Shown here: one piece after another, positions 17,527 through 59,910 of the stretch | How positions within the stretch are numbered: the first letter of the stretch is position 1 | How the letters are laid out: each line of letters starts with the position of its first letter | NCBI GenBank assembly: GCA_951799425.1 | Contig: OX637405.1 | Span: 18,015,089 to 18,079,088, forward strand | Reading direction: 5' to 3' | Length of the DNA: 64,000 nt | Source of the DNA: Ilex aquifolium | Taxonomy: Eukaryota; Streptophyta; Magnoliopsida; Aquifoliales; Aquifoliaceae | Made by a program: the position numbers and the translations under genes | The notes under the pieces: generated by a model | What the model was told of the DNA's origin: nothing | The model's database searches: none | What the model saw: only the letters and a program-made list of their open reading frames with translations

Positions 17527-19061
17527 CCAATCCCTCCTTAAATGTCTCATCCGCATCTACCTCTAGCTCACCCTAATCCACCACATGCGTAGGATCTAGA
17601 GTGTACTCCCGGAGTATGGAGACATGGAATACTTCGTGAACACTAGATAGATTTGGCGGTAATGCCAACCGGTAAGCGACTGTACCAACCCTCTCAAGTA
17701 CCTCGAAGGGCTTGATATACCTCGGCGACAAATTTTTCCACCTGCCGAACCTGACCATTCCTCTCTTGGACATCACCTTTAAGAATACGTGATCACCAAC
17801 CTCGAACTCCAGAGATCGTCGTCGTCGTCTGTCGGCGTAGCTCTTCTGCCGGCTATGTGCCGTAAGAAGACACTTCCGTATCAAGTCCACCTTCTCCGAG
17901 GTGTCTCTAATCAAATCTGGACCCATAGAGGGTCTCTTTCTAGCCTCCGTCCAACAAACTGGAGAGCAGCAGGACGTCCCATAAAGTACCTTATAGGTTT
18001 TCATCTGTATGTTTGCTTGATAACTGTTGTTGTAGGTGAACTCCACTAAGGGTAAATGTTCCTCCCAGCTACCCTTAAGATCATGGACGCATGCCCGAAG
18101 CATATCCTCGTCCTCTCTGACTGACCGTCCGTCTAGGGATGAAAAGTTGTGCTCATCATCAACTGTGTCCTCATAACCCACTGAAAACTTTCCCAAAAAT
18201 GGGCCGTAAACTTTGGATCCCGATCCAATACTATAGATATGGGTACCCTATGTAACCGGACTATCTCCTGAATATCCAACCTGTAGAATTCCTCCAGTGT
18301 GAAGGTCATTCGCACAGCCAAAAAGTGTGTCGACTTCGTAAGCCGGTCCACGATCACCCACATTGCATCGTACCCCCGTGCCGAACCTGACCATTCCTCT
18401 CTTGGACATCACCTTTAAGAATACGTGATCACCAACCTCGAACTCCAGAGGTCGTCGTCGTCGTCTGTCGGCGTAGCTCTTCTGCCGGCTATGTGCCGTA
18501 AGAAGACACTTCCGTATCAAGTCCACCTTCTCCGAGGTGTCTCTAATCAAATCTGGACCCATAGAGGGTCTCTTTCCAGCCTCCGTCCAACAAACTGGAG
18601 AGCAGCAGGACGTCCCATAAAGTACCTTATAGTTTTTCATCTATATGTTTGCTTGATAACTGTTGTTGTAGGTAAACTCCACTAAGGGTAAATGTTCCTC
18701 CCAGCTACCCTTAAGATCATGGACGCATGCCCGAAGCATATCCTCGTCCTCTCTGACTGACCGTCCGTCTAGGGATGAAAAGTTGTGCTCATCATCAACT
18801 ATGTCCTCATAACCCACTGAAAACTTTCCCAAAAATGGGCCGTAAACTTTGGATCCCGATCCAATACTATAGCTATGGGTACCCTATGTAACCGGACTAT
18901 CTCCTGAATATCCAACCTGTAGAATTCCTCCAGTGTGAAGGTCATTCGCACAGCCAAAAAGTGTGTCGACTTCGTAAGCCGGTCCACGATCACCCACATT
19001 GCATCGTGCCCCCGTGATGTCCGTGGCAATTGGGTCACAAAATCTATGGTGACATGCTCCC
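17519..19061 (-). pseudogene. Chromovirus X integrase core and C-terminal domain, partly duplicated
   Basis: Integrase core segments (MWVIVDRLTKSTHFLAVRMT, IVLDRDPKFTAHFWESFQ, SWEEHLPLVEFTYNNSYQ, VGDHVFLKVMSKRG, VHEVFHVSILREY) run from 19061 down to 17573. A 636-bp stretch occurs twice in tandem, so the order of core and C-terminal parts is repeated. Frameshifts occur where FSSLDGRSVREDEDML replaces the family's QTDGQSE region. The left flank joins the hAT-like element and the right flank solo LTR F. Confidence 0.8.
17744..19015. repeat. 636-bp tandem duplication inside integrase
   Basis: Copies 17744-18379 and 18380-19015 begin GCCGAACCTGACCATTCC and differ at about eight positions seen by eye (for example GAGATCG/GAGGTCG, TACCCC/TGCCCC). 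The length is a multiple of three. The related copy Y near 34130-34760 has only one unit. Confidence 0.9.
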
Positions 19062-20963
19062 TGATTGAGCAAAAACGCTGTTATTCCTAACCCCTAAACA
19101 TTACCATTTGACATGTGTATATGGCTTATGTGTGAAAGGGAGTGTCACTCTCCCTCGGGGTGATGCAAGAGATTAGGCAACAACGGATTGGTGGAAAATG
19201 GAATGAACAAAATGTGAATGAAATGAAATGCGGGTGTGTGAACAAAAGTGCTCCCCAATCGCAAAGAGTCTTTTGTGTTTCGGTGTTTTACTTGGAAAAG
19301 TATTCCAAGGTCGTCTCCTCAGGGAAGGAAAGTTCAAGTTGTGTGAATGTGATTTTGCAAAAGGTAAAGAAAGTGAAAAATCTTTTGTTTGAGTTTTGTG
19401 GTTGTGTTTGTGAATGGAAATGCAAGAAAATAATTGTTGGCTAATCCAAAAAGGTCATTCCAATGGGAATACCAAATCAACTCAAGCCTTCCTTCAATAG
19501 AGCCTAGAAGTACGATTGATTCGTGGGAAGCTCGGGACTAAAATGGAAGTGAGGATTCAAGCATACCCCGTGACAATGCCTACGGTATATCAAGAACTCA
19601 CAACCATGTCCTCACCCCAACCCAGTCAAACCGAGCCATCGTACTCTGAGAGGAGGAATGAAAATGAGTTGAAGTGGCACACCCAAGAGGAATTCTCTCT
19701 TGGATTAACCAACTTAAAAGCTAGTTACTCATGCATAAAAGAAAGACAAGCATAATGTAAATGAAAGACATTGTAGAGAAATGAAGATTTAAAACATGAA
19801 ACTTAACTTGAAGCAATAAATCTAAAGCTATGAAGGAAAATATGCAATACCCATTTTAAAAGATGAAATGAAGAAAACTTGAAGCAACAATGGTGAAATG
19901 AAGAACATGCAAGTAAACTTGGAATAAACTTGAAACAACTAAGATTAAAGTGCAAGGAATGAAGATTACAAGAGGTTTAAAGCTTACAACAATTGAAATG
20001 GAAAGGAAAATGCAAAAACATAAACTTACATTACACTATTCATCATCTTCTACATGGAACTAAAACTAAGCTTAGGTAGCCACCCCTTTACAATGTGTAA
20101 AATGCTGAATATAATGGAGAGTTAGCCTTCAATTTTCGTGCATGGTGGTCCCCCCTAGCTGTGTGCAGGCCTCCCATCAATAGGAGGCTAAGTTGAAGCT
20201 TGGACAGGCTAGGAGAAGGTTAGCCTGCAACTCCCCTGGCAGCCCCCTTCAATCCCCTCTTCATTAATGCCATTGCCTCCAAATGTCTTCAAGTAGGGTG
20301 TAGGAGGCATGGTTGGAGGGATAAAATGTCGGGCTAGGTGTGGGAGAATCAATGGTGGGACCCCCAAGCAAGTGGAGAAGAGTTTGCAGGTGTTCTGGGA
20401 GTGTACCGGTACTGTGTACCGGTACTCTAAACCTTCTGGAGTTCGAAGTACCGGTACGCAGTACCGGAACGGTGTAGTACCGGTACTGTGTACCGGTACT
20501 GTTTTCTGCTCCGGACCACTTTTCGTAGAATCGGCATAACTTTTGATCCAACCGTTGGATTGAGCTGAAATTTTGACACAATACAGAAAACATCCAGATC
20601 TACAACTTTCATGTTTTGAATGTTTTTATATTCGAAGTGGATCATGGTCAAAATGGAGGAAAATCGAGGCTCTTCAAACCAGTGGTGTGGCTGCTGGCGT
20701 CTTTGTTACCAAACACCAATACCTCCTTGATTTCTTCACTTTTAAGCCTCCAAATCTTTATGTAATGTGTCAATGCCCTCACCACACATCCAACATAGTT
20801 GCAAGGTCCTAAAATACATGATTTAAGCTATAAAAACATGCAACATCGAGAATTCAACATTATTCATAAAATCGGCTAACTCTAAGTACTTAGATGCAAA
20901 AGTTGAGTTAAAATGCATGTAATGAGGCCTTGAAATATACAATATTTTGTGCTCATCACTCCC
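19057..20963 (-). mobile_element. Solo LTR F (19062-20958), Athila-like family, TSD CTCCC
   Basis: 1897 bp, minus orientation: the LTR starts TGATGAGCACAAAATATTG at 20958 and ends ...TTTTTGCTCAATCA at 19062. It is flanked by CTCCC at 19057-19061 and 20959-20963, in integrase sequence that is continuous in copy Y (GTTCCCACTTCCACTCAG near 34801). It is the same broad family as LTR B and the inverted-LTR element but clearly diverged. Small open frames inside it are not genes. Confidence 0.9.
20403..20499. repeat. Array F: three pairs of GTACCGGTAC palindromes
   Basis: Copies start at 20403/20416, 20448/20461 and 20477/20490. Each pair has a 3-nt spacer (TGT, GCA, TGT) and 13-base periodicity; one half-site is GTACCGGAAC. 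A 6-nt spacer separates the second and third pairs. Confidence 0.88.
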
Positions 20964-22781: not shown

Positions 22782-23455
22782 CTAACGGAAATCATACATT
22801 ACTTGGAGTAAAATATCGTGATTTTCTCCCTGAAACTTGAAACAAACACCCTCTGGTGTATATGCAGTGACTCTCTTCCGATCATAATTGATGATGACTC
22901 GGTTTGCCGCCAACCAATCCATCCCAAGGATGAGATCAAACTCTGACATGTCCATGACCCTAAGGTTCATGGTGAGTAGAATTCTTGAGATCTCTAGCTC
23001 ACAACCCCGACATATCTGATTAATGCATACCCTAGCTCCTAGGGCAAAACTCACATGCAATGGCTCTTCCAAGATCTCAACCTCTAAGCACAAGTCTTGT
23101 AGGCAGTGGCCCACAATCTTTCCCCGGATGTACAAATTCAAGCCATCATCAAACCTCCTTACTTTGGCAATGTCTGTGGCCACATAATCATTGGCAAAAT
23201 GGGCTAACTCGATGAACTTAACCACGTATTCCATCACTGTTATAGTCCCTTACTTTAAATCCAAGAATTCTCAGTCTTTCGCTTGCTGAACAGTTGACAG
23301 GAAATACTTGCCCATTAAGAGCTCACAGAACTCTCCCTATGTCATTGCCTCTGGGTTCTTCGAGGCCATTGCTCAATCCCACCATAGATAGGCATTTCCC
23401 TTAAGCTAGAATGCAGCTAGCCTTATCTTAGTGGCATCAGATGTGATCTCCATAG
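22782..23455 (-). pseudogene. Chromovirus X gag fused to protease C-terminus by an internal deletion
   Basis: The frame 22782-23237 starts as gag (MMEYVVKFIELAHFANDYVA, RRFDDGLNLYIRGKI) and jumps after HCLQD to protease sequence (LEVEILEEPLHVS, then DLILGMDWLAANRVIINYDR). The zinc knuckle and the DTG/DSG catalytic aspartate segment are therefore missing. Upstream gag (23238-23455) has stops. It is interrupted at 23455 by the inverted-LTR element and continues at 30486. Confidence 0.8.
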
Positions 23456-25289
23456 TGATGAGCACATAATATTGCATATTTGAAGGGCTCATTACATACA
23501 TTTTAACTCAAATTTTGCATTTAAATACTTAGAGTTAGCCGAAATTATGAATAATGTTGATATTTTGATGTTGCAAGTTTTTATTGCTTAAATCATGTAT
23601 TTTAGGACATTGCAACTATGTTGGATGTGTGGTGAAGGAATGGACACAATACATGAAGAATTGGAGGCTTAAAAGTGAAGAAATCAAGAAGGCATTGGTG
23701 CTTGGGAACAAGGGCACCAGCTGCAGCAACAATTGGAAACACTGCCTCGGAATTCCTCCATTTTTACCATGATCTACTCATAATTTGGAAAAGTTCAAAA
23801 CATGAAAGTTGTAGATATGGGTGTCTTCTGTTTGGTGTCAAAATTTCAGCCCAATCCAACGGTTATATCAAGAGTTATTCCGATTCTACCAAAGGTGGTC
23901 CAGTGCAGAAAAACAGTACCGGTACTCGGTACCGGTACTCCGGACCTTCTGGTCGCGAAAACAGCCTGTAACTCAACTTTGAGGCTTGGGGGTCCCACCT
24001 GCACTTCTCCCACGCCTATCCCAACATTTCCTTACACATTTACAGGCCTTCTACACTCAAGTGGAAGACTTTAAAGGCCAATGCATTAAAGGAGGAATGG
24101 GGGGAAGTGGGCTGCCCAGGCTATGATCTCCTAGCCTGTCAAAGCCATCCATTCAGCCCTCTCTTGATGGGAGCTCGTTCACACAGCTAGGGGGGAGCCT
24201 CTTGGACGTTTTGGCAAGTCTCCACACTCAATATATTCAACATTCAACACATAATGTAAAGTTGTTGGCTACCTAAGCTTAGTTTTTGCTCCATTGAGGA
24301 AGAAGATGAATAGTGTAATGTAATTTCGTTTTTGCATTTCTTCCATCCATTTCACTTGTAATCCTTTGTAAGAACTTGGTAAGCTTCATTTAATGTATTT
24401 AATGCTATTCACTGCAAGTTCATTTCAAGTTTAATCTTTCATTTTAGCTTTCACCATTGTTGCTTCCATGTTTTCTTCATTTCTTAGCTTAAAATGGGTA
24501 TTGCATATTTTCCTTCATAGCTTTAGATTTCTTGCTTCAAGTTAAGTTTCATGCTTTAAATCTCCATTTCTCTTCCATGTCCATCTACATTATGCTTGTC
24601 TTGCATTTTTAATATGAGTAGCTAGGATTTAAGTTGGTTAATCCAAGGGAAAATTCCTCTTGGGAATACCATTTTCAACTCTTCTTCATTCCTCCCTTTA
24701 GAGTCAAATGGTTCGGTTTGACGGGGTTGAGAGTGGATGAGTTGGTGAGCCTTTGATATTCCGTAGGCCTAGTCACGGTTTATGCTTAGATACTCACCAA
24801 TCTCGTCCCTAGCTTCCCCCGAATCAATCGTTCATTCATGCTCAATCGGAGGAAGGCTTTGAGTTGATTTGGTATTCCCATTGGAATGAACCCTTTGGAT
24901 TAGCCAACACTTGCTTTCTTGCATTTTCATTTTGAACAAACCAAACACAAAACTCAAATACAAGATTTTACACTTTCTTTTCACTTTTGCAAAATCACTT
25001 TCACAAAACTCCCTTTCCTTCCCTGATGAGACGACCTTGGAATATTTTCCAAGTAAAACACACGACCACAAAAGACTCCTTTCGATCGGGGAGCATTTTT
25101 GTGCACACCGCATCTCATTCCATCTATTTTGTTCATCACATTTCCATTCACATCCATTTTGTTGTTGTTTCCTATCTTCTTGCATCATCCGGAGGGAGAG
25201 TGACACTCCCCCATCACTATAAGCCACATACACACATTGAGGGTGAGGGTGATGTTACGAGGTTAGGAACAACGTTTTCCAATCAATCA
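23456..25289 (+). repeat. Left LTR of the inverted-LTR element (1834 bp)
   Basis: TGATGAGCACATAATATTGC to ...GTTTTCCAATCAATCA, followed by TTT and the PBS. Contains one pair of GTACCGGTAC palindromes at 23916-23938 in the U3 slot. A weak TATA-like element (GCATTAAAGG) lies near 24083. The last ~960 bases are identical by eye to the right LTR; the first ~880 carry about 14 differences and a 29-base length difference in the palindrome array. Confidence 0.9.
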
Positions 25290-25292
25290 TTT

Positions 25293-25310
25293 TGGCGCCG
25301 TTGCCGGGGA
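25293..25310 (+). other. PBS (tRNA-Asp) of the inverted-LTR element
   Basis: TGGCGCCGTTGCCGGGGA, a perfect complement of the plant tRNA-Asp 3' end, three bases (TTT) after the LTR end. Confidence 0.92.
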
Positions 25311-25435
25311 AGGTTAAGCGTCGAGTTCAAATGGTGATTTTGGGACGGCATAAGGTAAGTCTTGTGATTTTCATCACGGGCCAAGGTATGTCGTCTAACT
25401 TGTAAATATTTTTGTTTTAGTTTGTGTTTTGTATT

Positions 25436-26374
25436 ATGTCTTATAATTTTTATGAAAATGTATATAATGCCCCATATTATGAAAATGTGTGTGAAATTTG
25501 TGATGACTATGGGCACATTACTAGTGAGTGCCCAAGAATGGCCTCTTATTTTGAAAAAGTATGCAAGATTTGTGGTGAGTATGGACACATCACTAGTGAG
25601 TGCCCAATAAATGCCCCTTATTTTGAATACGTTTGCGAAATTTGTGGTGAGAATGAACACCTCACTAGTGAATGCCCAATAAATGATCTGGTTCAAGACT
25701 TTGCATGCGAAAACTTTTACCCCAACCATTATGTTTCACCGAGTTATCCGAGTTATGGTTGAGAGAATGAACCTCATGATTTTTCATCCAATCTCACACC
25801 ACCAAATGAATTCTCCCAATATCCAACATACGGGAACTCAACCGAAGAAGAATTGGAAAATATTTTGTGCGATTTTATGCAATACCAAATGGAATTCAAT
25901 GCCCAAATAACCCAACAACTTGATACATTGACTAATGTTATAATTGCTATGGATGAAGAACAACATGTGGAACATAGTCAATGTATTGAGGATGATCATC
26001 CCAATGGAGTACAAATTGATGTTGAATCTCCCACCACTCTTGATTGTGAAAAACTTAATGAGGATATCATCTCACATGAGGCTAACGAGCCCAAGGTCAT
26101 TTTTCCATCTAAGAGTGGTGTTGAGATTCACATTTTTCAATTTGGGGAGGGCATTGAAATGGAGTTGAGTGGAGAAACTTTTAAAGACAAATTGCATACT
26201 CCATTGTTGGTATTGCATAAACTTGCCTACAACTTTGTTTGGTTGAGATTTTTGAAGCATTATCCTTTGTATTGTTGGATAGATTGGAGTGAAAGGGCAT
26301 TTATACAACAAAAAAATTTTAAAATCAAAAAAATCCATGGGCGTAGGGTCATATCCGAATTGAAGCCGGATTGA
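25436..26374 (+). pseudogene. Orphan gag-like protein with three tandem CCHC zinc knuckles
   Basis: ATG at 25436. Three CX2CX4HX4C knuckles (CEICDDYGHITSEC, CKICGEYGHITSEC, CEICGENEHLTSEC; residues ~18, ~44 and ~70), nearly identical and evenly spaced by 26 residues. A TGA at 25760-25762 stops this part, but the same frame continues to 26374 with an acidic segment and ends HGRRVISELKPD. No capsid domain, protease or RT is recognised. Knuckles suggest RNA binding. An upstream ATG at 25331 could be joined through a possible intron (25355-25420). Function unknown. Confidence 0.6.
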
Positions 26375-26540
26375 CATGAGCCCTTGTTGTTTTGTTTCCA
26401 TGTACATAGTAGTTATATCTCTTTTATTGTTATATTTTTATTTTTCATGTCATTGTAGTATAATGGTGAGTATCATTGTAGTTTAGATTTTAACATGAAG
26501 CATGTTTCAGCGGGAGTAGTTTGGCAGACAAAGCAGAACA

Positions 26541-26636
26541 GTACTGGTACTCGGTACCGGTACTAAAAACCTACTGGAATCGCAGTACCGGTACTCGGTA
26601 CCGGTACCAAATGGTACCGGTACCCAGTACCGGTAC
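26541..26636. repeat. Array G-internal: GTACCGGTAC palindromes outside the LTR
   Basis: Copies start at 26541, 26554, 26585, 26598, 26614 and 26627, i.e. three pairs of 13-base periodicity (spacers TCG, TCG, CCA), the second and third pairs joined by a 6-nt spacer. The same module as in this element's LTRs. Confidence 0.88.
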
Positions 26637-26853
26637 TGTTTGCCTGACAGACCCAATCTCTGCAATGCTGCTCCACCTGCTTTGAGGGCATCACCAGCAT
26701 TTCTCCCCCATGTTCTAGTCTAAGTTGGGGGGTGTAAATGAGCTTTGTTTGTTTCATTTTCTCTTTTATGTTTATATATATATATATATAAAAAAAAAAA
26801 GGGGTATCTCATTTCCCATTTTACCTTCATTGTTTTCATTGCATGATTCCTTG

Positions 26854-26890
26854 TGCATTGAGGACAATGCATAGTTTAAGTTGGGGGGTG
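26854..26890 (+). other. Hairpin plus PPT-like motif (internal copy)
   Basis: TGCATTG-AGGA-CAATGCA (7-bp stem) followed nine bases later by a run with TTGGGGGGTG (26881-26890). Same arrangement as the terminal PPT at 28575-28610. Confidence 0.6.
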
Positions 26891-28574
26891 AGGTGCACCA
26901 TTCACATGTTCCACCACTTTGTGTATAGAATAAGTTGGAAATGTGAAAATTTTGAAAAATTTTGGACAATTTTTGTGAAAAATAGTCAATATTGAACTAT
27001 ATTCCTCTATCCTAATTGTTATGGGATTTGTGAATTGCTTGATCTTCATTTTGAACTTTGAATACATGAGCACATTATAGAAGTTTATCCTATGCTTGAG
27101 TATCACATATGTGTTTTCTTTCAAACTCAACCATTGTGCACCTTGAATGTGTAATTTGGACAATTTACGGATTGAGTTCACATTTGAGTGCTTGACATGA
27201 ATAGTGGAGATGAGTAAGTACCCGTGTGAGCTTTAGTGCCAATTCTTGTTGGAAGGAACTTACATTTACTCAAGGAACAATTTTTCAAATTCCAAATTTG
27301 TTCAATAATCTCATTATGTTTGTTTTGGTTAGGTGTATTTGGGTAGTTGATTGACTTTGTCTTGATTGTACAATGCTCTCCCATGCCTATCTAGAAATGA
27401 TCTTAGGCCATCTTTGATGCTTTGAGCCTTAGCCTTTTTCTTGTGAAATTTTATCCCTAGTGCCATGATTGAGCCTTAATTGAATTCGTTTCTATGCCAC
27501 ACATGTAACCAAGCCAATGAAAATGATAAATATCTACCTTACCTTGGTTTTTCCTAGTGCTAAGTTGGGTGATGATAAAAGAAAAGGAATGATGGTGTGA
27601 AAAATCAAAAAAAAAAGGGATGAAGGATGTTGAAACTCAAAAGAGTTCAATGGAAAAAGAATGAAAATCCAAGAAAAGGAGAGAAAGGGAGTGAAAAAGG
27701 AGAAAAAGAATGAGAAAAAGAAAAGGGAAAAATGTAAAGGAAAAGAAAGAAAAGAAACAAAGGGTGTGGTGATGGTGTGAAAATTAAAATCCCATAAAAG
27801 GGAAGTGTTTTTCTAAGATTAAGGTCATTCACCCGGAACAACCCTCTTTGTTATCCTATATCCTTCGTTTCCCTTACCACAACATCACCCCAAGGCCTCA
27901 TTACAACCCATGAAAGTCCTAAAAGATCTAGAGAAGCATGGGGGATGCATACGTTTAAAAGAACAAGAGAAGTTGATTTTGCTATCTAATGCCCTAGCAT
28001 TCCTTTCATGAGATTATGCCAAGGTTGTTTCATTTTTATGCATACTTCATTTTTGGATTATATGTGAGCATACTTTGTTTTGTGCACAAGATTCCATCTC
28101 ACATATACACATGGAGAGCATGCCCGGATAATCATAGTGTTATTCATTTTGAGAGAACACCCTTGGTGAGTTTTTGCATTGAAGCTTAATGTGGATGGCC
28201 AAAGTAAATGTGAACTCCATCGTGTAAATGTTTAAATTACATGTTCATTTCACACGCACACGAGTTTTGAAAGGAAATGTGTATGTGGATACTCTAGAAT
28301 AGCATTTACGGCTATAATATGTCTCATGTGTGATTTGTTCGGGTGTTTGAACCAAGTTGTTTTTAGTATCCCATTGCTAATTAAGATATGAGAATATATT
28401 TTAAATATTGGATACTATGAAAAGAAGTTTGTAGGTACCTTCACTGGAAACCTTCAAGAGACAAAACTCGTCCACTAGGGATCACCTAGGGGTTTAAAGG
28501 CTTGTTGCATGTGCTAAATGTAATATCGGAATTAGTATAGTTTTATTTTTTGTTTTCTTGCTTTTTACATTTTG

Positions 28575-28610
28575 TTTGCTAGGGACTAGCAAAGCTTAAG
28601 TTGGGGGGTG
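28575..28610 (+). other. Hairpin plus polypurine tract of the inverted-LTR element
   Basis: TTTGCTAG-GGA-CTAGCAAA (8-bp perfect stem, 28575-28593), then AAGTTGGGGGGTG ending at 28610. The motif is shared base-for-base with element B (6580-6615) apart from one base. It is the expected plus-strand primer, but is followed by TGAAAAA and an inverted LTR instead of a direct one. Confidence 0.75.
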
Positions 28611-28617
28611 TGAAAAA

Positions 28618-30480
28618 TGATTGATTGGAAAACGTTGTTCCTAACCTCGTAACATCACCCTCACCCTCAATGTGTGTATGTGGCTTATAGTGATGGGGGA
28701 GTGTCACTCTCCCTCCGGATGATGCAAGAAGATAGGAAACAACAACAAAATGGATGTGAATGGAAATGTGATGAACAAAATAGATGGAATGAGATGCGGT
28801 GTGCACAAAAATGCTCCCCGATCGAAAGGAGTCTTTTGTGGTCGTGTGTTTTACTTGGAAAATATTCCAAGGTCGTCTCATCAGGGAAGGAAAGGGAGTT
28901 TTGTGAAAGTGATTTTGCAAAAGTGAAAAGAAAGTGTAAAATCTTGTATTTGAGTTTTGTGTTTGGTTTGTTCAAAATGAAAATGCAAGAAAGCAAGTGT
29001 TGGCTAATCCAAAGGGTTCATTCCAATGGGAATACCAAATCAACTCAAAGCCTTCCTCCGATTGAGCATGAATGAACGATTGATTCGGGGGAAGCTAGGG
29101 ACGAGATTGGTGAGTATCTAAGCATAAACCGTGACTAGGCCTACGGAATATCAAAGGCTCACCAACTCATCCACTCTCAACCCCGTCAAACCGAACCATT
29201 TGACTCTAAAGGGAGGAATGAAGAAGAGTTGAAAATGGTATTCCCAAGAGGAATTTTCCCTTGGATTAACCAACTTAAATCCTAGCTACTCATATTAAAA
29301 ATGCAAGACAAGCATAATGTAGATGGACATGGAAGAGAAATGGAGATTTAAAGCATGAAACTTAACTTGAAGCAAGAAATCTAAAGCTATGAAGGAAAAT
29401 ATGCAATACCCATTTTAAGCTAAGAAATGAAGAAAACATGGAAGCAACAATGGTGAAAGCTAAAATGAAAGATTAAACTTGAAATGAACTTGCAGTGAAT
29501 AGCATTAAATACATTAAATGAAGCTTACCAAGTTCTTACAAAGGATTACAAGTGAAATGGATGGAAGAAATGCAAAAATGAAATTACATTACACTATTCA
29601 TCTTCTTCCTCAATGGAGCAAAAACTAAGCTTAGGTAGCCAACAACTTTACATTATGTGTTGAATGTTGAATATATTGAGTGTGGAGACTTGCCAAAACG
29701 TCCAAGAGGCTCCCCCCTAGCTGTGTGAACGAGCTCCCATCAAGAGAGGGCTGAATGGATGGCTTTGACAGGCTAGGAGATCATAGCCTGGGCAGCCCAC
29801 TTCCCCCCATTCCTCCTTTAATGCATTGGCCTTTAAAGTCTTCCACTTGAGTGTAGGAGGCCTGTAAATGTGTAAGGAAATGTTGGGATAGGCGTGGGAG
29901 AAGTGTAGGTGGGACCCCCAAGCCTCAAAGTTGAGTTACAGGCTGTTTTCGCGACCAGAAGGTCCGGAGTACCGGTACTAGGTACCGGTACCATTTGGTA
30001 CCGGTACCAAGTACCGGTACTGTTTTTCTGCACTGGACCACCTTCGGTAGAATCGGAAGAACTCTTGATCTAACAGTTGGATTGGGCTGAAATTTTGACA
30101 CCAAACAGAAGACACCCATATCTACAACTTTCATGTTTTGAACTTTGCCAAATTATGAGTAGATCATGGTCAAAATGGAGGAATTCCGAGGCAGTGCTTC
30201 CAATTGTTGCTGCAGCTGGTGCCCTTGTTCCCAAGCACCAATGCCTTCTTGATTTCTTCACTTTTAAGCCTCCAATTCTTCATGTATTGTGTCCATGCCT
30301 TCACCACACATCCAACATAGTTGCAATGTCCTAAAATACATGATTTAAGCAATAAAAACTTGCAACACCAAAATATCAACATTATTCATAATTTCGGCTA
30401 ACTCTAAGTACTTAAATGCAAAAGTTGAGTTAAAATGTATGTAATGAGCCCTTCAAATATGCAATATTATGTGCTCATCA
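28618..30480 (-). repeat. Right LTR of the inverted-LTR element, reversed (1863 bp)
   Basis: Reads TGATTGATTGGAAAACG at 28618 (complement of the U5 end) to ...TATTATGTGCTCATCA at 30480 (complement of the U3 start). Between the PPT and the LTR there is TG plus five A. The array at 29969-30020 has four GTACCGGTAC copies (two 13-base pairs joined by a 6-nt spacer) where the left LTR has two; this explains the extra 29 bases. Confidence 0.9.
29969..30020. repeat. Array G-right: four GTACCGGTAC palindromes
   Basis: Starts at 29969, 29982, 29998 and 30011: 13, 16 and 13 bases apart, spacers TAG, CATTTG and CAA. Confidence 0.88.
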
Positions 30481-30485
30481 CATAG

Positions 30486-30749
30486 CCTCTAAGATCTTAT
30501 CAACTTGTTGGAACCAATGGTCGGCCACCATTGGATCCGCCCCTTCCATAAAAGTCGGTGGCTTGTGTGCCTTAAACTTTTGGAGGTTAGTTGAGCCTCC
30601 TTGACCCATATTGGCACTGGCTTGCAACAGGTGGCAGCTATCGTGCCCATAGCCTCCATGAAGGCTTGTTGGTCTAAGGCCGATTGTGGTTGGTTGTTAT
30701 TTCGCCCACCTCCTCGACCGTTCCGGTGTCCTCTTCCTCTATTTTCCAT
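30486..30749 (-). pseudogene. Chromovirus X gag N-terminus
   Basis: Starts at ATG 30749 with MENRGRGHRNGRGGGRNNNQ and reads DQQAFMEAMGTIAAT before decaying by frameshift. It lies ~330 bases downstream of the PBS and continues on the other side of the inverted-LTR element at 23455. The 5' leader (30750-31083) has no gene. Confidence 0.8.
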
Positions 30750-35649: not shown

Positions 35650-36391
35650 CTATGTACCTATGTTCCCTCCTGAAGTTTCTCCCTCCTTGGGAGGATTGAC
35701 CATGGCCTTGGCTTTGATAGCCGCGGCCTTGTCCCTAATACCCTTGTGGGGTAGAAGTCTTTTGCTTCTTCCCCGAACTAGAAGAAGAGAATTGTCCCTC
35801 CTTCTTGTCATTAGCACCCACCTCCCGGATGCCCTTGCGCCTTCCACCTCTCTCCCAATGGTCATAGCTGTCTCGACCATTGAGTCCAAATCTTGTATGT
35901 AGTGGCTCACAATCTTTTCCCGGATCGACAATTTCAAACCATCCTCAAACCTCCTCACTTTGGCCAAGTTTGTGGCCACATAATCATGGGCAAAACGGGC
36001 TAAATCGGTGAACTTAGCGATGTATTCCATCATTGTCATGGTCTCTTGCTTCAAATCGAAGAATTCCTGGGCTTTCGCTTGTCGAACAGCCGATGGGAAG
36101 TACTTGCCCATGAAGAGCTCATGAAACTCTCCCCATGTCATTGCCTCTATGTTCTTTGAGGCCTTTGCCCAATCCTACTATAGATGGGTCTCTCCTTCAA
36201 GCTAGAACGTAGCTAGCCTTATCTTAGTGGCATTGGATGTGATCTACATAGCCTCTAAGATCTTATCAACTTGCTGGAACTAATGGTTAGCCACCATCGG
36301 ATCCGCCCCTCCAATAAAAGTCGGTGGCTTGTGTGCCTTAAAATTTTGGAGGTTACTCGAGCCTCAGCCCACATTGGCACTGGCTTGCAAA
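35650..36391 (-). pseudogene. Chromovirus Y gag
   Basis: The frame 35650-36141 has the gag core (MTWGEFHELFMGKYFPSAVR, AKAQEFFDLKQETMTMMEYI, ARFAHDYVATNLAKVRRFED) and a basic linker. Upstream sequence to 36391 is gag with stops, matching 30486-30640. The left end is fused directly to RNase H sequence, the right end to the middle of an LTR, so PR-RT and the PBS-proximal part are both deleted. Confidence 0.8.
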
Positions 36392-45683: not shown

Positions 45684-46365
45684 TGATGGTGTAAATCTAT
45701 GCGTATGAGCTACGGAACAGGATTATTCTGTATGAACGATCTGTGTGGTGCTAAGTATAGTATTTGAGCTACAAGGCTCGAATTTAGTAATGCTAATTGA
45801 CGTTTTCGGAGAAGGAAGAAATAAGCAATAACACAAACGGGGTTATAGTGGTTCACCGGCCTGAGCTCGGCTAGTCCACTCTGCAATGGAGTCTCTAGCT
45901 CCTTTCTTTCTTATTGACCGAGTTGAATGTATTACAATTTTTGTATATCCCCCTTGGGGTTCTTCGTGGCTCCCCTTTTATAGCCTCATGCTTACCTCTA
46001 ATCCGAGATCCCTTCCTACAATGAAGGGATCTTCCCCTATCTTCCTCTCCAATTTCAGAGTTACCTAAACTCCCTATGGCTGGCTTCAAACGGTCTGTAC
46101 CCCGTGATCTTTGCCTTCTATCGTGGGATCCCCCTTAATGCTTGGAGAGGATTGAGGTGGGTTGAGAGTTTCGTGCCTTAGTTCTTGCTTCTTAGTTATT
46201 CTGTCGGTATCCGCTATTGTCTAGCTGCCTTCTTTTCTTCTTTGTTGTGATTTCATCTGTAGGGAGCTCTGGCTTTAGTCCTCTGAGCTACGAACCTTTC
46301 GCCTGACCTCCTGGGCTGAGCTCTATGTCTGAGTTCATACTTAGGATTTATTCTAGTCATCATCA
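45684..46365 (-). repeat. 3' LTR of the Tat-like element (682 bp)
   Basis: TGATGGTGTAAATCTATGCG to ...CTAGTCATCATCA. TATAAAAGGGGA on the minus strand at 45971-45982. Repeated GAGCTC-type and GAGCTACAAGGCTC motifs. It would also lie upstream of the antisense gene and could supply an outward promoter. Confidence 0.93.
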
Positions 46366-46386
46366 GTTGCCCCCCAGCCCTTGGCT
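46366..46386 (-). other. Polypurine tract of the Tat-like element
   Basis: Minus strand GGGCTGGGGGGCAAC directly before the 3' LTR start. Confidence 0.8.
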
Positions 46387-47025
46387 CAAGCGAGCTTGGG
46401 CAGGGGCTGAGCTGTTTTAAACCGAGCTAAAAATCTGCTCGTGACTGGCCTTAGCTTGTATAAGGGCATTGCCTTTTTGACGGTTTTTTGACAATCATGG
46501 TCTCCTCGATTCCCGCGCATGTTCTAGCCCACGTCCTCTCAAGCCATAAATGTCCAAACGGTCATCAAAACCCTCATTCTCACTCTGTTCATCTTCTTCA
46601 TTGCTCTTCGTCTTCATTCTTGTGATTTCAGGCCATTAGTTTGAAATTTCCTGATTTCTCGTTTGAAATTGAATTCCCAGTTCTCGTCTTGAAGACTCGC
46701 AGTGCCTCTTCCCTTCGATATTGCTCCAGGCTTCTGTTCGCCGCTATTCCTGAGTTTAGGTACGTCATTTGCCCCTTTCACTTCCTCCTTTGCTCTGGAT
46801 CCCTCGAATTCGAGGTGGTCGCTACATTTTTGGGCTTTTCGGTTCTTTTACTTTTGGAATCGTGATCATTGCCTAACCCCACTTCCCCACTTCGTGGATT
46901 GGAGTTCTATAGTTCATATCCTTGCCATTGGGAGTTACTGTGTCGACCCCAGGGTCATTAGAGAGTGCCTGACCAGTGCCCCTTCCCTTTATCGCTCTTT
47001 TAATCTTCATTTTTCTCTTCCTACC

Positions 47026-49632
47026 ATGTCAGCCTCTTCTGGAGCCACTCGCTCCTCTGTTTCACTCTTAGGAGATAGGTCAGCCGAGGAAGAGACCGAA
47101 TTAGGGGAAGTAGGTGACGAGATAGACAATTTCCCTGGGGTTGATGTCACTGATTCCGAGGTCAACACCGAGGAGCTCCCCTCAACATCTTCCCCCCTGC
47201 CCCCTAAGACAAACAAAGGCAAGGGCAAGGTCAGTGGAGTTGGGATTTCTGATGTCTCAACGTACTTAGGAGCTGCCTATAAGCTAGCTGAGCAAGTGGA
47301 CCTTAGCAAGCTCAATCCTTTTTTGTTAAACGTTTTGCGTACTCGCTATAGGTTCCCTACTGGCGTTGAGCTCTTGAGCCCAGATAATTTTACCCCCTTC
47401 GTTGCCCAGGTTAACAAGAGGGTCTGTTTTTTTGAGGCCGCCTTCGATAATGGCCTTCGTTTTCCTATACATCCCTTTTTCAAGACCATTTTGCAGTACT
47501 TCAACGTGTGCCCCTCTCAACTTTCTCCTAATTTATGGGGTGTCTTAGTGGGTCTTCTGGTTATTTTCAAAGATTTAGACCTCGGGGTCCCTACCCTTCC
47601 TCTATTCCTAGAGTTCTTCAATGTTAAACCGACCTCTCAGGAAGGCTTCTTGTATGCCTCTAAGCGTGCCAATGTTAGGCAGCTTATTTCTAACATTCCG
47701 ACCTCCCACAAACATTGGAAGGAACATTTCTTTTTTGTCGGGGGCACCGGCTGGGAATACAACCCTGCTGACAGGTCGGACACTCTTGGTATTCCCAAGG
47801 CCTGGACTCGTCCGGACAACTTGGGTGAGTCCTTAATTGGGTTAGTTGCGTGCTTCGTTTCGAGGGCCATGAGCTCCTAACTCTGCTCTGCCTTTGTGTT
47901 TTCTAGGTACTCGCCACAAGCTCAGCACTGAGGAACAAGAGGCGAGGGAGATATTGGCAAAGTGCACCCCCAGGAGGTATTCCGAGCTTATTCTGCCTTG
48001 GGTTTTGGTGGACAGAGGGTTCAGCCTTCCTGAGGTAGAGATTGAGGCTCCGCTTCCAATTTCTGTTGTCAGACCTGAAGGAGCTGCTGGTAACCCCCCT
48101 TTCCTAAGGGTTTCTTTATCTTACTTTTTATTTCTTTTTGTCTAACTGTTTTAGCTCAGATTATCCAGGATCTTCCACTATGAAGCTTAACCCCGAGGAA
48201 ATCCAGGCCAAGTTGAACAAGTTGTCAAAAAGTGGGAGAGGCAGCAAGAGGAAGGCTCAGGTCGGTTTCTGGGAGTAGCTCTGCTCCTCAAACCAAAGTT
48301 CAGAAAGTGGGGGAACCAACTTCTTCCTCAGCTGTCAAAGATCTGGTTCCTCCACCTAGCTCGTCTGAGATTGTGAAGACCCCTCCTTCTCCAAAAACCC
48401 AGCCTATCTCAGCGGGAGGTCAGACTTCTCCTTCCTCGTCAGAGATTGAGAAGGCTTTGGAAGTGATCCCGCGTGTCCGACCTGGTAGTTTCAGATATAG
48501 CTCTTCAGGGAAGGTCATTGAGACAACTCTGGTGGGTTCTGAGAGCAAGAAGGGGACGCTACCCGACGTGAAGGAAGATGAAGATTCCTTTTTTAGAAAC
48601 ATGGAGCTCGCCGCATGGGCTGTTTCCTCTATTCTTCTTGAGTCTGACGTCCAGAGGGCTGCCACTATGGAGCTTGAAGAGTCCATCGCATCAGCTCTTC
48701 AGGGAGCAGCTACTGTAAGTCTTGATATTCTTAGGCATCTGTTTAACCTTATGTCATAGCTGTTTACTGCTTACTTTTTTTTTTTCTTTTCTGTGCCTCT
48801 TTAGATGGCCATCCATGTAAAGGGCCTGCTGAGGAGAGTTCGGTCTTCCGAGTCTTCTGTTAAAGTTCTGAAGGCGTACGAGCTCAAGGTTGCGGAGCAG
48901 TCTTTTGAGAATGAGGATCTCAAAAACCAAGTGAAGGACCTAACTGAACAGCTGGAGAAGCAATCCTCTGATCTCAAGGGCTTCAAAGCAGCCAAGCTCA
49001 AGGCTGAGGAGGGAGAAAAGAAGGCTCGTGACGAGCTAAGGATTGTGGGGGAGGAGCTGAAGCATAAAACTGAGCTCTGGGCTAAGGCTAATCAGGATGC
49101 TTTTGACGCCCGCAACTCTCTTGAGTTCACAAAGAGAGAATATGACACCATTTGCGAGGCGAATGGGATTCTTCATAAGGAGCTCAAGGAGAAGAGTGAT
49201 TTAATTGCCGAGCTGACTGATGAAGCCACCACCCAATGGGCCTCTGGGTGGCTTGCTTTTCAGCGTAAAGCTTCGAAGATCTTTCCCGATCTGGATTTTA
49301 ATTTACCTATCCCAACAGAGGGGGAATTGGAAACCGACTCTGATGGTGAGGAAGACAACTCAGCTCTTCTCCCTGAAGCCTCAGTCCAAGATGTACCTGC
49401 TCCTCCAATGATTGCTCGTGCTGCGTCCTTCTCTGTTGATCTGGTGTCCGAAGCCCTTGAGCAAGGATCATTACTAGACAGGGCGGAGGCTCCTGGGATC
49501 AACATTCCTGAGAATTTTACTCCTCCAGCTTCTGGGTCCTTGCCTTCTGAGCTGTCGGGCTCTACTTCTCCTGCTGAGGCTGCATCCGCCGAGCTGCAAG
49601 ATCTTCTGTCCACTCCCCCTCCAGAAACTTAG
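47026..49632 (+). CDS. Antisense extra gene of the Tat-like element (transposase_28-like N-terminus, coiled-coil C-terminus)
   Basis: Opposite strand to the element. Proposed exons 47026-47824, 47907-48089, 48160-48714 and 48805-49632, with GT-AG introns of 82, 70 and 90 nt that preserve frame; poly(A) signal AATAAA at 49663-49668. The N-terminus has an acidic start (VGDEIDNFPGVD) and a globular domain (FFEAAFDNGLRFPIHPFFKT, then LLVIFKDLDLG) resembling the 'putative gypsy type transposon' domain (PF04195). The C-terminal exon is a long coiled coil (KAYELKVAEQSFENEDLKNQ) plus an acidic Pro/Ser tail. One apparent frameshift lies in exon 3 near 48250-48270 (KRKAQ frame to SGSSSAPQ frame). An upstream 5' UTR intron with donor near 46760 is possible; the frame is also open from 46702. 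Role in the element unknown. Confidence 0.7.
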
Positions 49633-49662
49633 GATTTTTCAGTTGTAATCTCTCTTCTTTGT

Positions 49663-49668
49663 AATAAA
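49663..49668 (+). terminator. Poly(A) signal of the antisense gene
   Basis: AATAAA 30 bases after the TAG of the last exon, followed by a T-rich stretch. Confidence 0.6.
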
Positions 49669-49990
49669 ATTTTTTTGAGATGCAACTTTGCCTTGGGCTA
49701 GGACTTGTTTTACTTTGCAATCTTCATCTGTTTTTCCTTTGCTGGCTTAGCACATATATACCTTCGAATTTCGATTTCGAACTGTACTTTTACTTGTTTT
49801 GCTTTATATGCGTTCTGCTTTATATACTCCCCTTCCCCCTTAGCTTTGAGGGGTGCTGTGCACTTCTTGAAGCAAAATTACTAGGTTTGAAGAGTATATG
49901 AGACTTGGTGTTATGCTCAATGGCTTCCCCTGAGCTGTTGAGCTCGGTAGTTTGTATCTCAGGGATCCCTTCTCTTTTCTTCTTTATTTT

Positions 49991-50746
49991 GAGCCACACA
50001 GCTTGATATTGTGAACTGGCGAGTTCCTTCTGAGCTACATGGCTCGTTTTCGTGAACTTAATAGTTCTTACTGAGCTTCATGGCTCAAGTTTGTGAACTT
50101 AAAAGTTCTTACTGAGCTTCATGGCTCATTCTTGTGGACTTAAAAGTTCTCACTAAGCTTCATGGTTCGTTTTTGTGAACTTGATAGTTCTTACTGAGCT
50201 TCATGGCTCAAGTTTGTGAACTTAAAAGTTCTTACTGAGCTTCATGGCTCATTCTTGTGGACTTAAAAGTTCTCACTGAGCTTCATGGCTCGTTTTTGTG
50301 AACTTGATAGTTCTTACTGAGCTTCAGGGCTCGTTGTTGTGAACTTGAAAGTTCTTACTGAGCTTCAGGGTTCGTTTTTGTGAACTAGAAAGTTCTTACT
50401 GAGCTTCAGGGCTCGTTTTTGTGAACTTGAAGGTTCTTACTGAGCTTCAGGGCTCGTTTTTGTGAACTTGACAGTTCTTACTGAGCTACTTGGCTCTTTT
50501 TTGTGAACTTGAAGGTTCTTACTGAGCTTCAGGGCTCGTTTTTGTGAACTTGAAGGTTCTTACTGAGCTTCAGGGCTCGTTTTTGTGAACTTGACAGTTC
50601 TTACTGAGCTACTTGACTCTTTTTTGTGAACTTGAAAGTTCTTACTGAGCTTCAGGGCTCGTTTTTGTGAACTTGAAGGTTCTTACTGAGCTTCAGGGCT
50701 CGTTTTTGTGAACTTGACAGTTCTTACTGAGCTACTTGGCTCTTTT
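49991..50746. repeat. 41-bp minisatellite, 18 full copies
   Basis: Every unit starts GAGCTTCAGGGCTC (or GAGCTACTTGGCTC) and continues with GTGAACTTGAAGGTTC and TTACT. Two higher-order blocks of three units (123 bp) are visible: 50073-50318 and 50401-50746. Each unit has two interrupted palindromes (GAGC-N6-GCTC and GAAC-N6-GTTC) whose starts are 22 bases apart. It lies between pol and the antisense gene, in the element's 3' region, a known source of satellites in Tat/Ogre elements. Confidence 0.95.
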
Positions 50747-50811
50747 AATAGACCCTTGGTGAAACAAATTTCATTGTTTTATTGATAAAAATTCTCTTAC
50801 AAAAAGAGGAC

Positions 50812-52809
50812 TTACTGAAAAAATCTTTTGAGATGCTCTGCGTTCCAAGAATGAGGTAATATCTTTCCCTCCTCTGTTTGTAATTCGTAGTTTCCGGATC
50901 TGATCACCCTCGAGACGATATAAGGACCCTCCCAATTTGGTCCCAGCTTCCCATGAGTGGGATCCTTCCTGGCCGGCAAGAGCTTCCTGAGGACCAGATC
51001 TCCCACTTTGAAACTTCGGTGTTTGACTTTCCTGTCATAGTACCTTGCAGCCTTCCTCTGGTAAGCCTTAATGCGACGCAGAGCTGTTTCTCTTTTTTCT
51101 TCCAAGAGGTCCAAGTTTAACATAAGAGACTCATCATTGTGCTGAGACTCTGCAAATTCGGCCCTAGGGGATGGGATTCCAATTTCTACCGGTGCTACTG
51201 CCTCTGTTCCAAAAGCTAGGGCGAATGGAGTCTCCTGAGTCGCTGACCTTGCTGTCGTTCTATAGGCCCATAGTACTTCAGGGATATGCTCCACCCATTT
51301 TCCTTTTAAGGCTTCAAGCTTGGTCTTCAGAGCTGCTTTGATGGTTCTGATGGTGACTTCTGCCTGTCCGTTGGATTGTGGATGGGCTGGGGCCGAAAAG
51401 TAATTCTTTATTCCCAGATCAGCACAGAACTTCTTGAATTTGGGATTATCGAACTGTTTTCCATTGTCGGAAACGATTGCCTTGGGAATTCCAAACCTGC
51501 AAATTATTGATTTCCACGCAAAGTTTTGAACCTTTTGTTCCGTTATTGAGGCCAGGGGCTCCACTTCAGCCCATTTGGTGAAGTAATCCACCCCAACAAT
51601 AGCGAACTTACACTGTCCCATGCCGGTAGGCAGAGGTCCTAGGATGTCCAAACCCCACTGCTGGAAAGGCCAAGGGCTTACTACTGCAGTTAAGAGCTCT
51701 GACGGGCAATGAGGGATATTGGCATGCATTTGGCAAATGGTGCATTTTCTGACCAAGTCGACCACATCTTTGAGTATGGTAGGCCAATAGTAGCCTTGCC
51801 TTAATACTTTCCCTGCTAGAGCTTGAGCTCCAATATTGTTGCCGCAAATTCCCTCATGAACATCTCTAAGTATGTAATTGGCGTCTTCATCTCCCACGCA
51901 TTTAAGAATTGAAGCTGAAAAACCTAGTTTGTATAGGTCTCCCTGCAAAACAGAAAACCTGGCTGACCTGGTCCTTAGTTTCGCTGCTTCTTTGGGATCT
52001 GTTGGCAGAGTCCCATTCTGTAGGTACCCCATGATGGGGTCCATCCAGCTTGGTTGACCCTCCACGAGCAGTATTTCCCCATCTTTGACGCATACGGATG
52101 GCTCCGTTAGGTGTTCCACTGGAATCAGCCTGTCTAAGCTTTCCTGCGAAGCCGTTGCCAATCTAGCTAAGGCGTCAGCTCGGGAGTTTTCGGCTCTGGG
52201 GATATGTCTGACTTTAACCCGCACAAATTTTCTCATTAATTCTTGCACCTTCCTGAGGTAGAGGACCATTTTCTCCCCTCTTGCCTCGTAAGACTCTTCT
52301 ATTTGCTTTACTATGAGTTGTGAGTCACTGCAGATCTCCAATTGCTCCGCCTCCATTGAGTGAGCGAGATTGAGCTCGGCGATGACAACCTCATACTCAG
52401 CCTCATTATTTAAAGCCTTAAATCCAAACCTGAGTGCATACTCGACATCTATCCCATCCGGAGAGGTTAGAATCAAGTCTGCGCCACTTCCTTGAGCGTT
52501 GGCGGCTCCATCTACCGAAAGCTTCCATGTAAGGAGGTCTGTCACTAACTGTGTGGCTTCCGGGGGTGCTGTCGTTGTGAATTCTGCGATGAAATCTGCT
52601 AGAATTTGCCCCTTGATTGCAGTCCTCGGCTTGTACCCGATATCAAACTCACTGAGCTCTATAGCCCACTTAACCAGCCTTCCAGAGGACTCTGGCTTGT
52701 GCAACACTTGTTTCATCGGCTGATCTGTCGGTACCTCAATAGTATGAGCCTGAAAGTAGGGCCTAAGTCTTCTGGCAGCGGTGACTAAGGCTAAGACGAG
52801 TTTTTCCAT
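50812..52809 (-). CDS. Tat-like pol C-terminal part: RNase H end, second RNase H, integrase
   Basis: 665 codons. It begins with the end of the usual RNase H (LVKWAIELSEFDIGYKPRTA, then ILADFIAEF). Next is a second, archaeal-type RNase H (LSVDGAANAQGSGADLI, LNNEAEYEVVIAELNLA, ICSDSQLIVKQI, ENSRADALARLA). Integrase has the zinc-binding region (GQGYYWPT-like, CTICQMHA), catalytic residues in WGLDILGPL, VSDNGKQFD and NGQAEVTIRTIK, and a GPY-like C-terminus (GPNWEGPYIVSRVI). No chromodomain. The second RNase H is the hallmark of Tat. This segment is intact, but is cut from RT by a TGA at 52945-52947 in the same frame. Confidence 0.92.
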   Translation of the reverse strand: MEKLVLALVTAARRLRPYFQAHTIEVPTDQPMKQVLHKPESSGRLVKWAIELSEFDIGYKPRTAIKGQILADFIAEFTTTAPPEATQLVTDLLTWKLSVDGAANAQGSGADLILTSPDGIDVEYALRFGFKALNNEAEYEVVIAELNLAHSMEAEQLEICSDSQLIVKQIEESYEARGEKMVLYLRKVQELMRKFVRVKVRHIPRAENSRADALARLATASQESLDRLIPVEHLTEPSVCVKDGEILLVEGQPSWMDPIMGYLQNGTLPTDPKEAAKLRTRSARFSVLQGDLYKLGFSASILKCVGDEDANYILRDVHEGICGNNIGAQALAGKVLRQGYYWPTILKDVVDLVRKCTICQMHANIPHCPSELLTAVVSPWPFQQWGLDILGPLPTGMGQCKFAIVGVDYFTKWAEVEPLASITEQKVQNFAWKSIICRFGIPKAIVSDNGKQFDNPKFKKFCADLGIKNYFSAPAHPQSNGQAEVTIRTIKAALKTKLEALKGKWVEHIPEVLWAYRTTARSATQETPFALAFGTEAVAPVEIGIPSPRAEFAESQHNDESLMLNLDLLEEKRETALRRIKAYQRKAARYYDRKVKHRSFKVGDLVLRKLLPARKDPTHGKLGPNWEGPYIVSRVIRSGNYELQTEEGKILPHSWNAEHLKRFFQ

Positions 52810-52944
52810 TTTGGGGTATCTTTCCTCTGCCCCCCTCAGAGCTCTGCTGCAGTAATATACTGGCTGCTGAGCTCTGTCTTGCTCCCTTACTAGCGCTGCA
52901 CTGGTTGAAAAGTTCGAGACAGCCAGATAAAGTGTGAGTACCTC

Positions 52945-54618: not shown

Positions 54619-54720
54619 GGCTTCTCCAGCTCTGACTCTGCGCAGGTGAGCCTTTCTAGCTGAGCTGGACTCACCACCTCCTGCGAATCCACCAGATATT
54701 ACTCTGATTTCCCCTAGGGG

Positions 54721-56277: not shown

Positions 56278-56320
56278 CAGTCACTGAGAGATCAGCTTAT
56301 TTGTTATAGGAACAGTCGTT

Positions 56321-56336
56321 CCCACAGACGGCGCCA
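56321..56336 (-). other. PBS of the Tat-like element
   Basis: Minus strand TGGCGCCGTCTGTGGG, three bases from the LTR end. This PBS is widespread in plant Ty3 elements; the tRNA was not assigned here. Confidence 0.85.
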
Positions 56337-56339
56337 AAC

Positions 56340-57021
56340 TGATGGTGTAAATCTACGCGTATGAGCTACGGAACAGGATTATTCTGTATGAACGATATGT
56401 GTGGTGCTAAGTATAGTATCTAAGCTACAAGGCTCGAATCTAGTAATGCTAATTGACGTTTTCGGAGAAGGAAGAAATGAGCAATAACACAAACGGGGTT
56501 ATAGTGGTTCACCGGCCTGAGCTCGGCTAGTCCACTATGCAATGGAGTCTCTAGCTCCTTTCTTTCTTATTGACCGAGTTGAATGTATTACAATTTTTGT
56601 ATATCCCCCTTGGGGTTCTTCGTGGCTCCCCTTTTATAGCCTCATGCTTACCTCTAATCCGAGATCCCTTCCTACAATGAAGGGATCTTCCCCTATCTTC
56701 CTCTCCAATTTCGGAGTTACCTAAACTCCCTATGGCTGGCTTCAAACGGTCTGTACCCCGAGATCTTTGCCTTCTATCGTGGGATCCCCCTTAATGCTTG
56801 GAGAGGATTGAGGTGGGTTGAGAGTTTCGTGCCTTGGTTCTTGCTTCTTAGTTATTCTGTCGGTATCCGCTATTGTCTAGCTGCCTTCTTTTCTTCTTTG
56901 TTGTGATTTCATCTGTAGGGAGCTCTGGCTTTAGTCCTCTGAGCTACGAACCTTTCGCCTGACCTCCTGGGCTGAGCTCTATGTCTGAGTTCATACTTAG
57001 GATTTATTCTAGTCATCATCA
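56340..57021 (-). repeat. 5' LTR of the Tat-like element (682 bp)
   Basis: TGATGGTGTAAATCTACGCG to ...CTAGTCATCATCA. Same length as the 3' LTR. TATAAAAGGGG on the minus strand near 56627-56638. Followed by the TSD copy ATACT. Confidence 0.93.
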
Positions 57022-59823: not shown

Positions 59824-59910
59824 TATATCTTCGAGAAATGAAACAGAAAAACAGAAAATGGAACTAAATATTGGCAACTGAACTGCTTCTGAAATTCCTG
59901 ACTACTTGGT

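Follow-up and report, generated by a model that had tools for sequence, protein, structure and literature searches.

Complex elements of the Triticeae have been read as single integrations that arose through abnormal template switching during reverse transcription (Sabot and Schulman 2007, PMC1950507), and autointegration in Ty1 and retroviruses gives rise to circles with two long terminal repeats (LTRs) in inverse orientation (PMC4751563), inverted circles being described for HIV as well (PMC2644782). Palindromic LTR junctions are cut by foamy virus integrase (PMC1180852), and aberrant HIV integrations can rearrange host DNA (PMC5041404). The locust element Gypsy-25 is said to have an inverted LTR pair, in a passage that gives no sequence detail and could bear on novelty (PMC8786324). 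The passages of the open-access literature drawn on here contain no description, with sequence, of an integrated class with inverted LTRs, and a search of that literature for use by integrase of a pair of U3 (unique 3') ends returned no match. Here we describe a non-autonomous LTR retrotransposon of 7,025 bp in a 64,000-nucleotide stretch of the Ilex aquifolium genome (the window; contig C15, positions 18015089-18079088), which lies at window positions 23456-30480, its left LTR pointing forward and its right LTR reversed. The best explanation, in which we place considerable confidence, is that an aberrant join at the level of complementary DNA (cDNA) produced a molecule with two U3 ends, which was then inserted by integrase. 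Coordinates are window positions unless a contig is named.

Structure, target site and outer ends

Self-comparison of the window pairs 23455-25293 with 28614-30481 as an inverted match of 97.6% identity (two ungapped pairs in another comparison). The element, its flanking target-site duplication (TSD), its putative primer-binding site (PBS), its polypurine tract (PPT) and a related empty site are laid out as follows, U5 denoting the unique 5' region and ORF an open reading frame.

23451-23455: left TSD, CATAG
23456-25289, plus strand: left LTR, 1834 bp, U3 outward, TGATGAGC...ATCAATCA; this start is common to 65 of 66 sibling LTRs
25290-25293, plus strand: TTTT joining the LTR end to the PBS; identical in the six siblings classed as 5' LTRs
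25293-25310, plus strand: putative PBS, TGGCGCCGTTGCCGGGGA; exact match, chance expectation 0.01 at three or fewer mismatches
25469-25684, plus strand: three 72-bp repeats with, by eye, C-x2-C-x4-H-x4-C-like coding
25853-26374, plus strand: sole internal ORF of at least 150 amino acids; no Pfam family above cut-off
28598-28608, plus strand: 3' PPT, AAGTTGGGGGG; the motif also precedes the nine siblings classed as 3' LTRs
28609-28613, plus strand: TG, the usual 2-nt spacer between PPT and U3, followed by TG(A), the first 2-3 nt of a normal U3
28613-28617, plus strand: AAAA(A), reverse complement of the PBS-side TTTT and thus an untrimmed U5 end; one A is shared ambiguously with the preceding part
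28618-30480, minus strand: right LTR, inverted, 1863 bp, U3 outward
30481-30485: right TSD, CATAG
36237-36251: related host element lacking the insertion (empty site), CTACATAGCCTC, from self-comparison and sequence reading

The inverted match bears out the left-plus, right-minus arrangement that a sequence-only reading of the window had proposed. The right LTR exceeds the left by 29 bp, and the arms enclose an internal region of 3,328 bp (25290-28617). Both a PBS after the 5' LTR and a PPT before the 3' LTR are present; no pol gene of its own was found among internal ORFs of at least 150 amino acids (one ORF), and translation of 25431-25750, which spans the 72-bp repeats, contains two stops. 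Within the internal region AGTTGGGGGGTG occurs in three exact copies (26723, 26879 and 28599), two of which precede the working PPT, and repeats of the GGTACCGGTACC type lie at about LTR positions 455-500 (23910-23955 and 29965-30030) as well as internally at 26541-26646.

A five-base match such as the CATAG on either side of the element has a chance of about 1 in 1,000 by itself; the TSD is secure here because a paralogous empty site is present. The host flanks at 23091-23455 and 30469-30627 match 35887-36251 and 36237-36390, where a related host element contains ...GATCTACATAGCCTCTAAGATC..., as expected before insertion, and reads CTACATAGCCTCTAAGATC at the insertion site, so that the host is uninterrupted once the element is left out. 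The earlier claim of a CATAG duplication within a continuous host gag is upheld by this vacant paralogue. The host element that carries the insertion also holds a solo LTR of a related subfamily (19062-20958, minus strand, TSD GGGAG) and a 638-bp tandem duplication at 98.7% identity (17743-19016).

To place the outer ends, we read sibling LTRs from the assembly (800,232,872 bases in 103 contigs scanned). A first set, picked by similarity to the left arm, comprised 40 scored among 5,832 candidates, the first being the window itself and the remaining 39 being read: 27 solo LTRs with a 5-bp TSD, five 3' LTRs, three 5' LTRs and four others. The second, picked by similarity to the right arm, reduced from 81 rows to 30 loci, one of them the window itself; two (L055 and L080) were dropped as too short and 27 were classed, with a 5-bp TSD in 14, a 4-bp TSD in one, four 3' LTRs, three 5' LTRs and five others, of which L057 and L075 look like 5' LTRs with an altered border. 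A 5-bp TSD is therefore the norm in this family, as the solo LTRs of the first set attest. Both window arms start outward with TGATGAGC, as do all siblings except L023 (TGATGATC), which confirms that the outer ends of both arms are the U3 terminus used by siblings, as the sequence-only reading held. At one further locus (L037, C11:4471200-4473150) an LTR has antisense LTR sequence of the same family on either side, judged by eye, which may reflect one LTR nested within another.

The inner junction and a second inverted element

The normal layout of the family is LTR-TTTT-GGCGCC...PPT-GGGGGG-TG-LTR. In the nine siblings classed as 3' LTRs, GGGGGGTG stands before the LTR and the border is GGGGGG-TG/TGATGAGC, while the LTR end is ATCA/TTTTGGCGCC in the six classed as 5' LTRs, although this classing itself relied on the PPT-side and PBS-side motifs, and two of the six (L076 and L081) were not traced to their other end. 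Four sibling pairs have direct LTRs and a shared TSD, the orientation expected of an integrase-type element, which the window element does not have. An inverted right arm would reveal itself by a reversed PPT beyond its U5 end, and no sibling among the 66 has one; an inverted element's left arm would pass as normal among them.

At the window junction the sequence is GGGGGG-TG-TG(A)-AAAA(A)-TGATTGATTGG: what remains on the PPT side is the 2-nt spacer with 2-3 nt of U3, while 4 nt from the LTR-PBS interval stay attached to the inverted LTR. The sequence-only reading had the PPT followed directly by the reversed LTR; the reversal stands, and the exact abutment does not, since 4-5 nt of post-PPT sequence and 4-5 A's intervene. 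Because integrated siblings stop at ATCA followed by host sequence, the U5 end at this junction is untrimmed, the form that retroviral biology leads one to expect at the right end of linear cDNA before trimming by integrase. A simple flip in situ of a genomic 3' LTR was rejected, as it would carry no AAAA, integrated 3' LTRs abutting host sequence.

A genome-wide search of the kind that the sequence-only reading had suggested, for a PPT followed within 25 nt by the reverse complement of U5, returned seven rows representing six distinct sites, and a second whole inverted-LTR element was found among them. Its junction (C10:31352541-31352566) belongs to an element at C10:31350714-31357613, a span derived from match coordinates, with a left LTR of 1,833 bp, a reversed right LTR of 1,834 bp, arms 98% identical and a TSD of GCATG on both sides. 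The inner junction reads GGGGGG-TG-T-AAAAA-TGATTGATGG, TGATTG following the A's. Its LTRs are 88.5-90% identical to those of the window element and represent another LTR subfamily, and the internal regions are 94.9% identical over most of their length and reach 98.75% identity in the final 1.5 kb. The two elements differ in LTR subfamily, TSD, locus and junction, which argues for separate events, with some doubt arising from the closeness of that final 1.5 kb.

The same search bears on whether the right LTR could be a separate antisense solo-LTR insertion. Such insertions beside PPT-like motifs do exist, at sites on C5 and C19, which were rejected as inverted elements because each antisense LTR has a TSD of its own (ATGAT and GTGCA, respectively). 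The sequence-only reading had named an independent TSD around the right LTR as the observation that would overturn it, and none is present: the right LTR of the window element is bordered by AAAAA on one side and CATAG on the other, that of the C10 element by AAAAA and GCATG. Moreover, the element would be left without a 3' LTR of its own, and we give this explanation next to no credence. Two other sites were also set aside: on C7 an antisense LTR has its own reversed PPT further on (TSD not found), and on C8 later internal sequence directly follows the motif.

A second pattern (GGGGGGTG, 0-12 nt, AAAATGATT) matched five sites genome-wide, namely the window and C10 elements again, two unrelated sites on C13 and one on C3; a pattern scan of viral_contigs gave no match. 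The junction at C3:20799903 is GGGGGG-TG-C-AAAA-TGATTGTC, beyond which lies an antisense LTR, from a more distant subfamily, with GTGCTAATCA at its end. At this locus (C3:20799898-20801767; L083, L088 and L090) the antisense LTR differs in subfamily from the left LTR upstream, the two having a single shared match of 508 nt at 73.6% identity, and the U3 end of the left LTR was not found at the locus. Two families may have been joined here, or the locus may have been rearranged later, and we do not count it as a third case.

Long inverted repeats are difficult to assemble, and both structures are read from assembled sequence. It is nevertheless highly unlikely that they are assembly artefacts: the run of PPT, TG, TG, AAAAA and reverse-complemented U5 joins sequences that are not adjacent in the normal copies read, and flipping assembled pieces would not produce it; the flanks show a TSD and a continuous host, and the same design recurs at a second locus.

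Formation of the inverted-LTR copies

In the two elements the junctions fall 3-5 nt beyond the PPT and 4-5 nt beyond U5, positions that are natural ends of reverse-transcription products. We suggest that reverse transcription of the non-autonomous element gave an aberrant linear cDNA with its right LTR attached backwards. The growing plus strand would overrun the PPT by 3-5 nt, through strand displacement into U3, and be joined to the blunt U5 end of an LTR duplex not yet trimmed by integrase, which could be its own right end or that of a sister cDNA in the same particle. For the join, a jump of reverse transcriptase onto the plus-strand LTR DNA, at its 3' end, with copying back from there, has in our view close to an even chance, and ligation by end joining is a somewhat weaker candidate. 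The displaced minus-strand LTR would then be removed, leaving a product with two PPT-made U3 termini, and integrase, presumably supplied in trans, would trim both U3 ends and insert the pair by an ordinary 5-bp staggered cut. Both cases have U3 termini and a 5-bp TSD, which implies that integrase handled a U3-U3 pair; avian integrase has U3-U3 activity in vitro. The earlier proposal that an aberrant cDNA with two U3 ends integrated as one unit thus gains support from the TSD, the empty site, the U3 termini, the junction and the second element.

Autointegration offers another route to such ends, in which the cDNA attacks its own PPT/U3 border to form an inversion circle with a U3-U3 junction that integrase reopens and inserts. 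Inverted-LTR circles of this origin are described (PMC4751563; PMC2644782), foamy virus integrase cleaves palindromic LTR-LTR junctions (PMC1180852), and the TGTGA after the PPT in the window element could be a 5-bp duplication. However, strand transfer should join a trimmed U5 end (...ATCA), whereas AAAA(A) is retained at both junctions, and the remnant is 4-5 nt in the window element and 3 nt (TGT) on C10, where no 5-nt remnant is seen. We consider this route very unlikely.

Apart from a short repeat tract, the window arms are distinguished by 14 substitutions (15 in another comparison) and the 29-bp indel; all 14 lie at LTR positions 57-873, and the final 961 bp are free of them (P about 2e-5 if sites were spread uniformly). 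When the same division is applied to five further pairs with direct LTRs, of which four were seen to share a TSD and one was paired by position, the counts are 11:8, 9:10, 22:5, 21:8 and 6:6, or 69:37 when pooled; the window skew exceeds theirs (Fisher P = 0.005), and that of the C10 element (23:7) does not (P = 0.27). The first half of the LTR thus changes faster in general and the window element is extreme; since the direct pairs are also skewed and the C10 element is not above them, we dropped the skew as proof of a reverse-transcription origin. Compared with the 66 siblings, six of the 14 substitutions are near-private to the left arm, four are near-private to the right and four are segregating, so that the ten near-private ones fit mutation after insertion. 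The simplest account would be such mutation, together with gene conversion that recently homogenized the inner arm segments. In these comparisons the U3/R border was placed by eye only, from a TATA-like stretch, and LTR halves were compared by distances.

An origin of the two arms from two RNA templates was also rejected. The 29-bp stretch is missing from all 39 left-arm relatives sampled and present in all 27 right-arm relatives sampled, a split that reflects the picking of each set by similarity to one arm. The repeat unit varies in presence even between the LTRs of one normal copy (L039/L064, TSD CCTAC), as it does within a presumed pair (L062/L032, TSD unverified).

An alternative is rearrangement after insertion. 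In this scenario a normal element with direct LTRs inserts first, and a replication or repair polymerase at the right PPT/U3 border then switches to the left LTR in inverse orientation, copies it and returns to the right flank through ATCA microhomology. The arms are nearly identical, fully so over the inner 961 bp; the reverse complement of the left LTR start and the end of a normal right LTR have ATCA(C) in common at the outer border; and the left LTR-PBS border could supply the AAAA. The inner junction, by contrast, is without microhomology, and on C15 as well as C10 the breaks would have to fall no more than 5 nt from the PPT on one side and from the LTR end on the other. We know of nothing that would favour breaks at such positions in genomic DNA, and we regard rearrangement as improbable.

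Several points weigh against formation by a cDNA-level join. The TGAT...ATCA terminal inverted repeat gives 4-5 bp of microhomology at the outer right border, usable by replication-based copying of the left LTR. The concentration of 14-15 differences in the first 873 bp is not predicted by the join and calls for the later gene conversion. The C10 junction holds one A more than the LTR and TTTT account for, and the near-identity of the last internal 1.5 kb makes some link between the two inverted elements possible. The empty site is shown for the window element, the C10 element being supported by TSD, arms and junction, and our tally covers junctions between PPT and reversed U5.

We tentatively propose, at somewhat less than even confidence, that reverse transcription of LTR retrotransposons repeatedly gives rise to inverted-LTR insertions that go unnoticed: a plus strand overrunning the PPT by a few nucleotides would jump to an untrimmed U5 end, and integrase would insert the resulting U3-U3 cDNA with a normal TSD. 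Such a jump may even unite the LTRs of two co-packaged families, as the C3 junction hints. Structure-based annotation seeks direct LTR pairs, so it would overlook inverted-LTR copies or record them as solo LTRs with fragments. The class can be searched for in any plant genome, as a PPT, reversed U5 within a few bases and a TSD outside. As natural, heritable examples, the two elements suggest that LTR-retrotransposon integrase can use a U3-U3 pair, and their inner junctions record the mis-join at the PPT base by base. Transcripts of the inverted 1.8-kb arms could also fold into hairpins and so contribute to silencing of the family by small RNAs.

Neighbouring features and comparison with known systems

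Elsewhere in the window, direct repeats at 45684-46365 and 56340-57021 (98.5% identity) enclose minus-strand ORFs with reverse-transcriptase-like and integrase matches and long ORFs on the plus strand; 45684-57021 may be a young LTR element that contains a coding stretch in antisense. At 50009-50746, the spacing of self-matches points to a tandem array whose unit is about 41 bp long. The protein encoded at 58066-59877 (minus strand) is 94% identical to phytochrome kinase substrate 1 of Ilex paraguariensis, the next listed match being at 60%.

The inverted element of the window comes closest to the LARD/TR-GAG-like non-autonomous LTR retrotransposons of the integrase type. It has the PBS, the PPT, the LTRs starting with TG and ending with CA and the 5-bp TSD of that group, and differs from it in its inverted right LTR and in having U3 at both outer ends. 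In a DNA transposon or foldback element with long terminal inverted repeats, family members would have inverted termini and lack a PBS and a PPT; this identity was rejected, since every resolved sibling is either a solo LTR or lies next to a PBS or a PPT. DIRS elements are not known to have TSDs, and a DIRS-like identity was likewise rejected, since a 5-bp TSD is present and the sole ORF tested is no recombinase by Pfam.

Inverted LTRs are shared with DIRS-1, which uses a tyrosine recombinase and circular intermediates, whereas the window element has a 5-bp TSD and belongs to a PBS/PPT family with direct-LTR siblings (PMC5633606). The inversion circles of autointegration also carry two LTRs in inverse orientation; those products are circles, while ours is integrated as a unit and has, at its inner junction, a U5 end that was left untrimmed (PMC4751563). 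Like the window element, the Triticeae complex elements were judged to be single integrations by their TSD, and in their case also by outer LTR similarity; as described in the passages cited, they have shared LTRs, three in number with two core regions, and none of them is inverted (PMC1950507).

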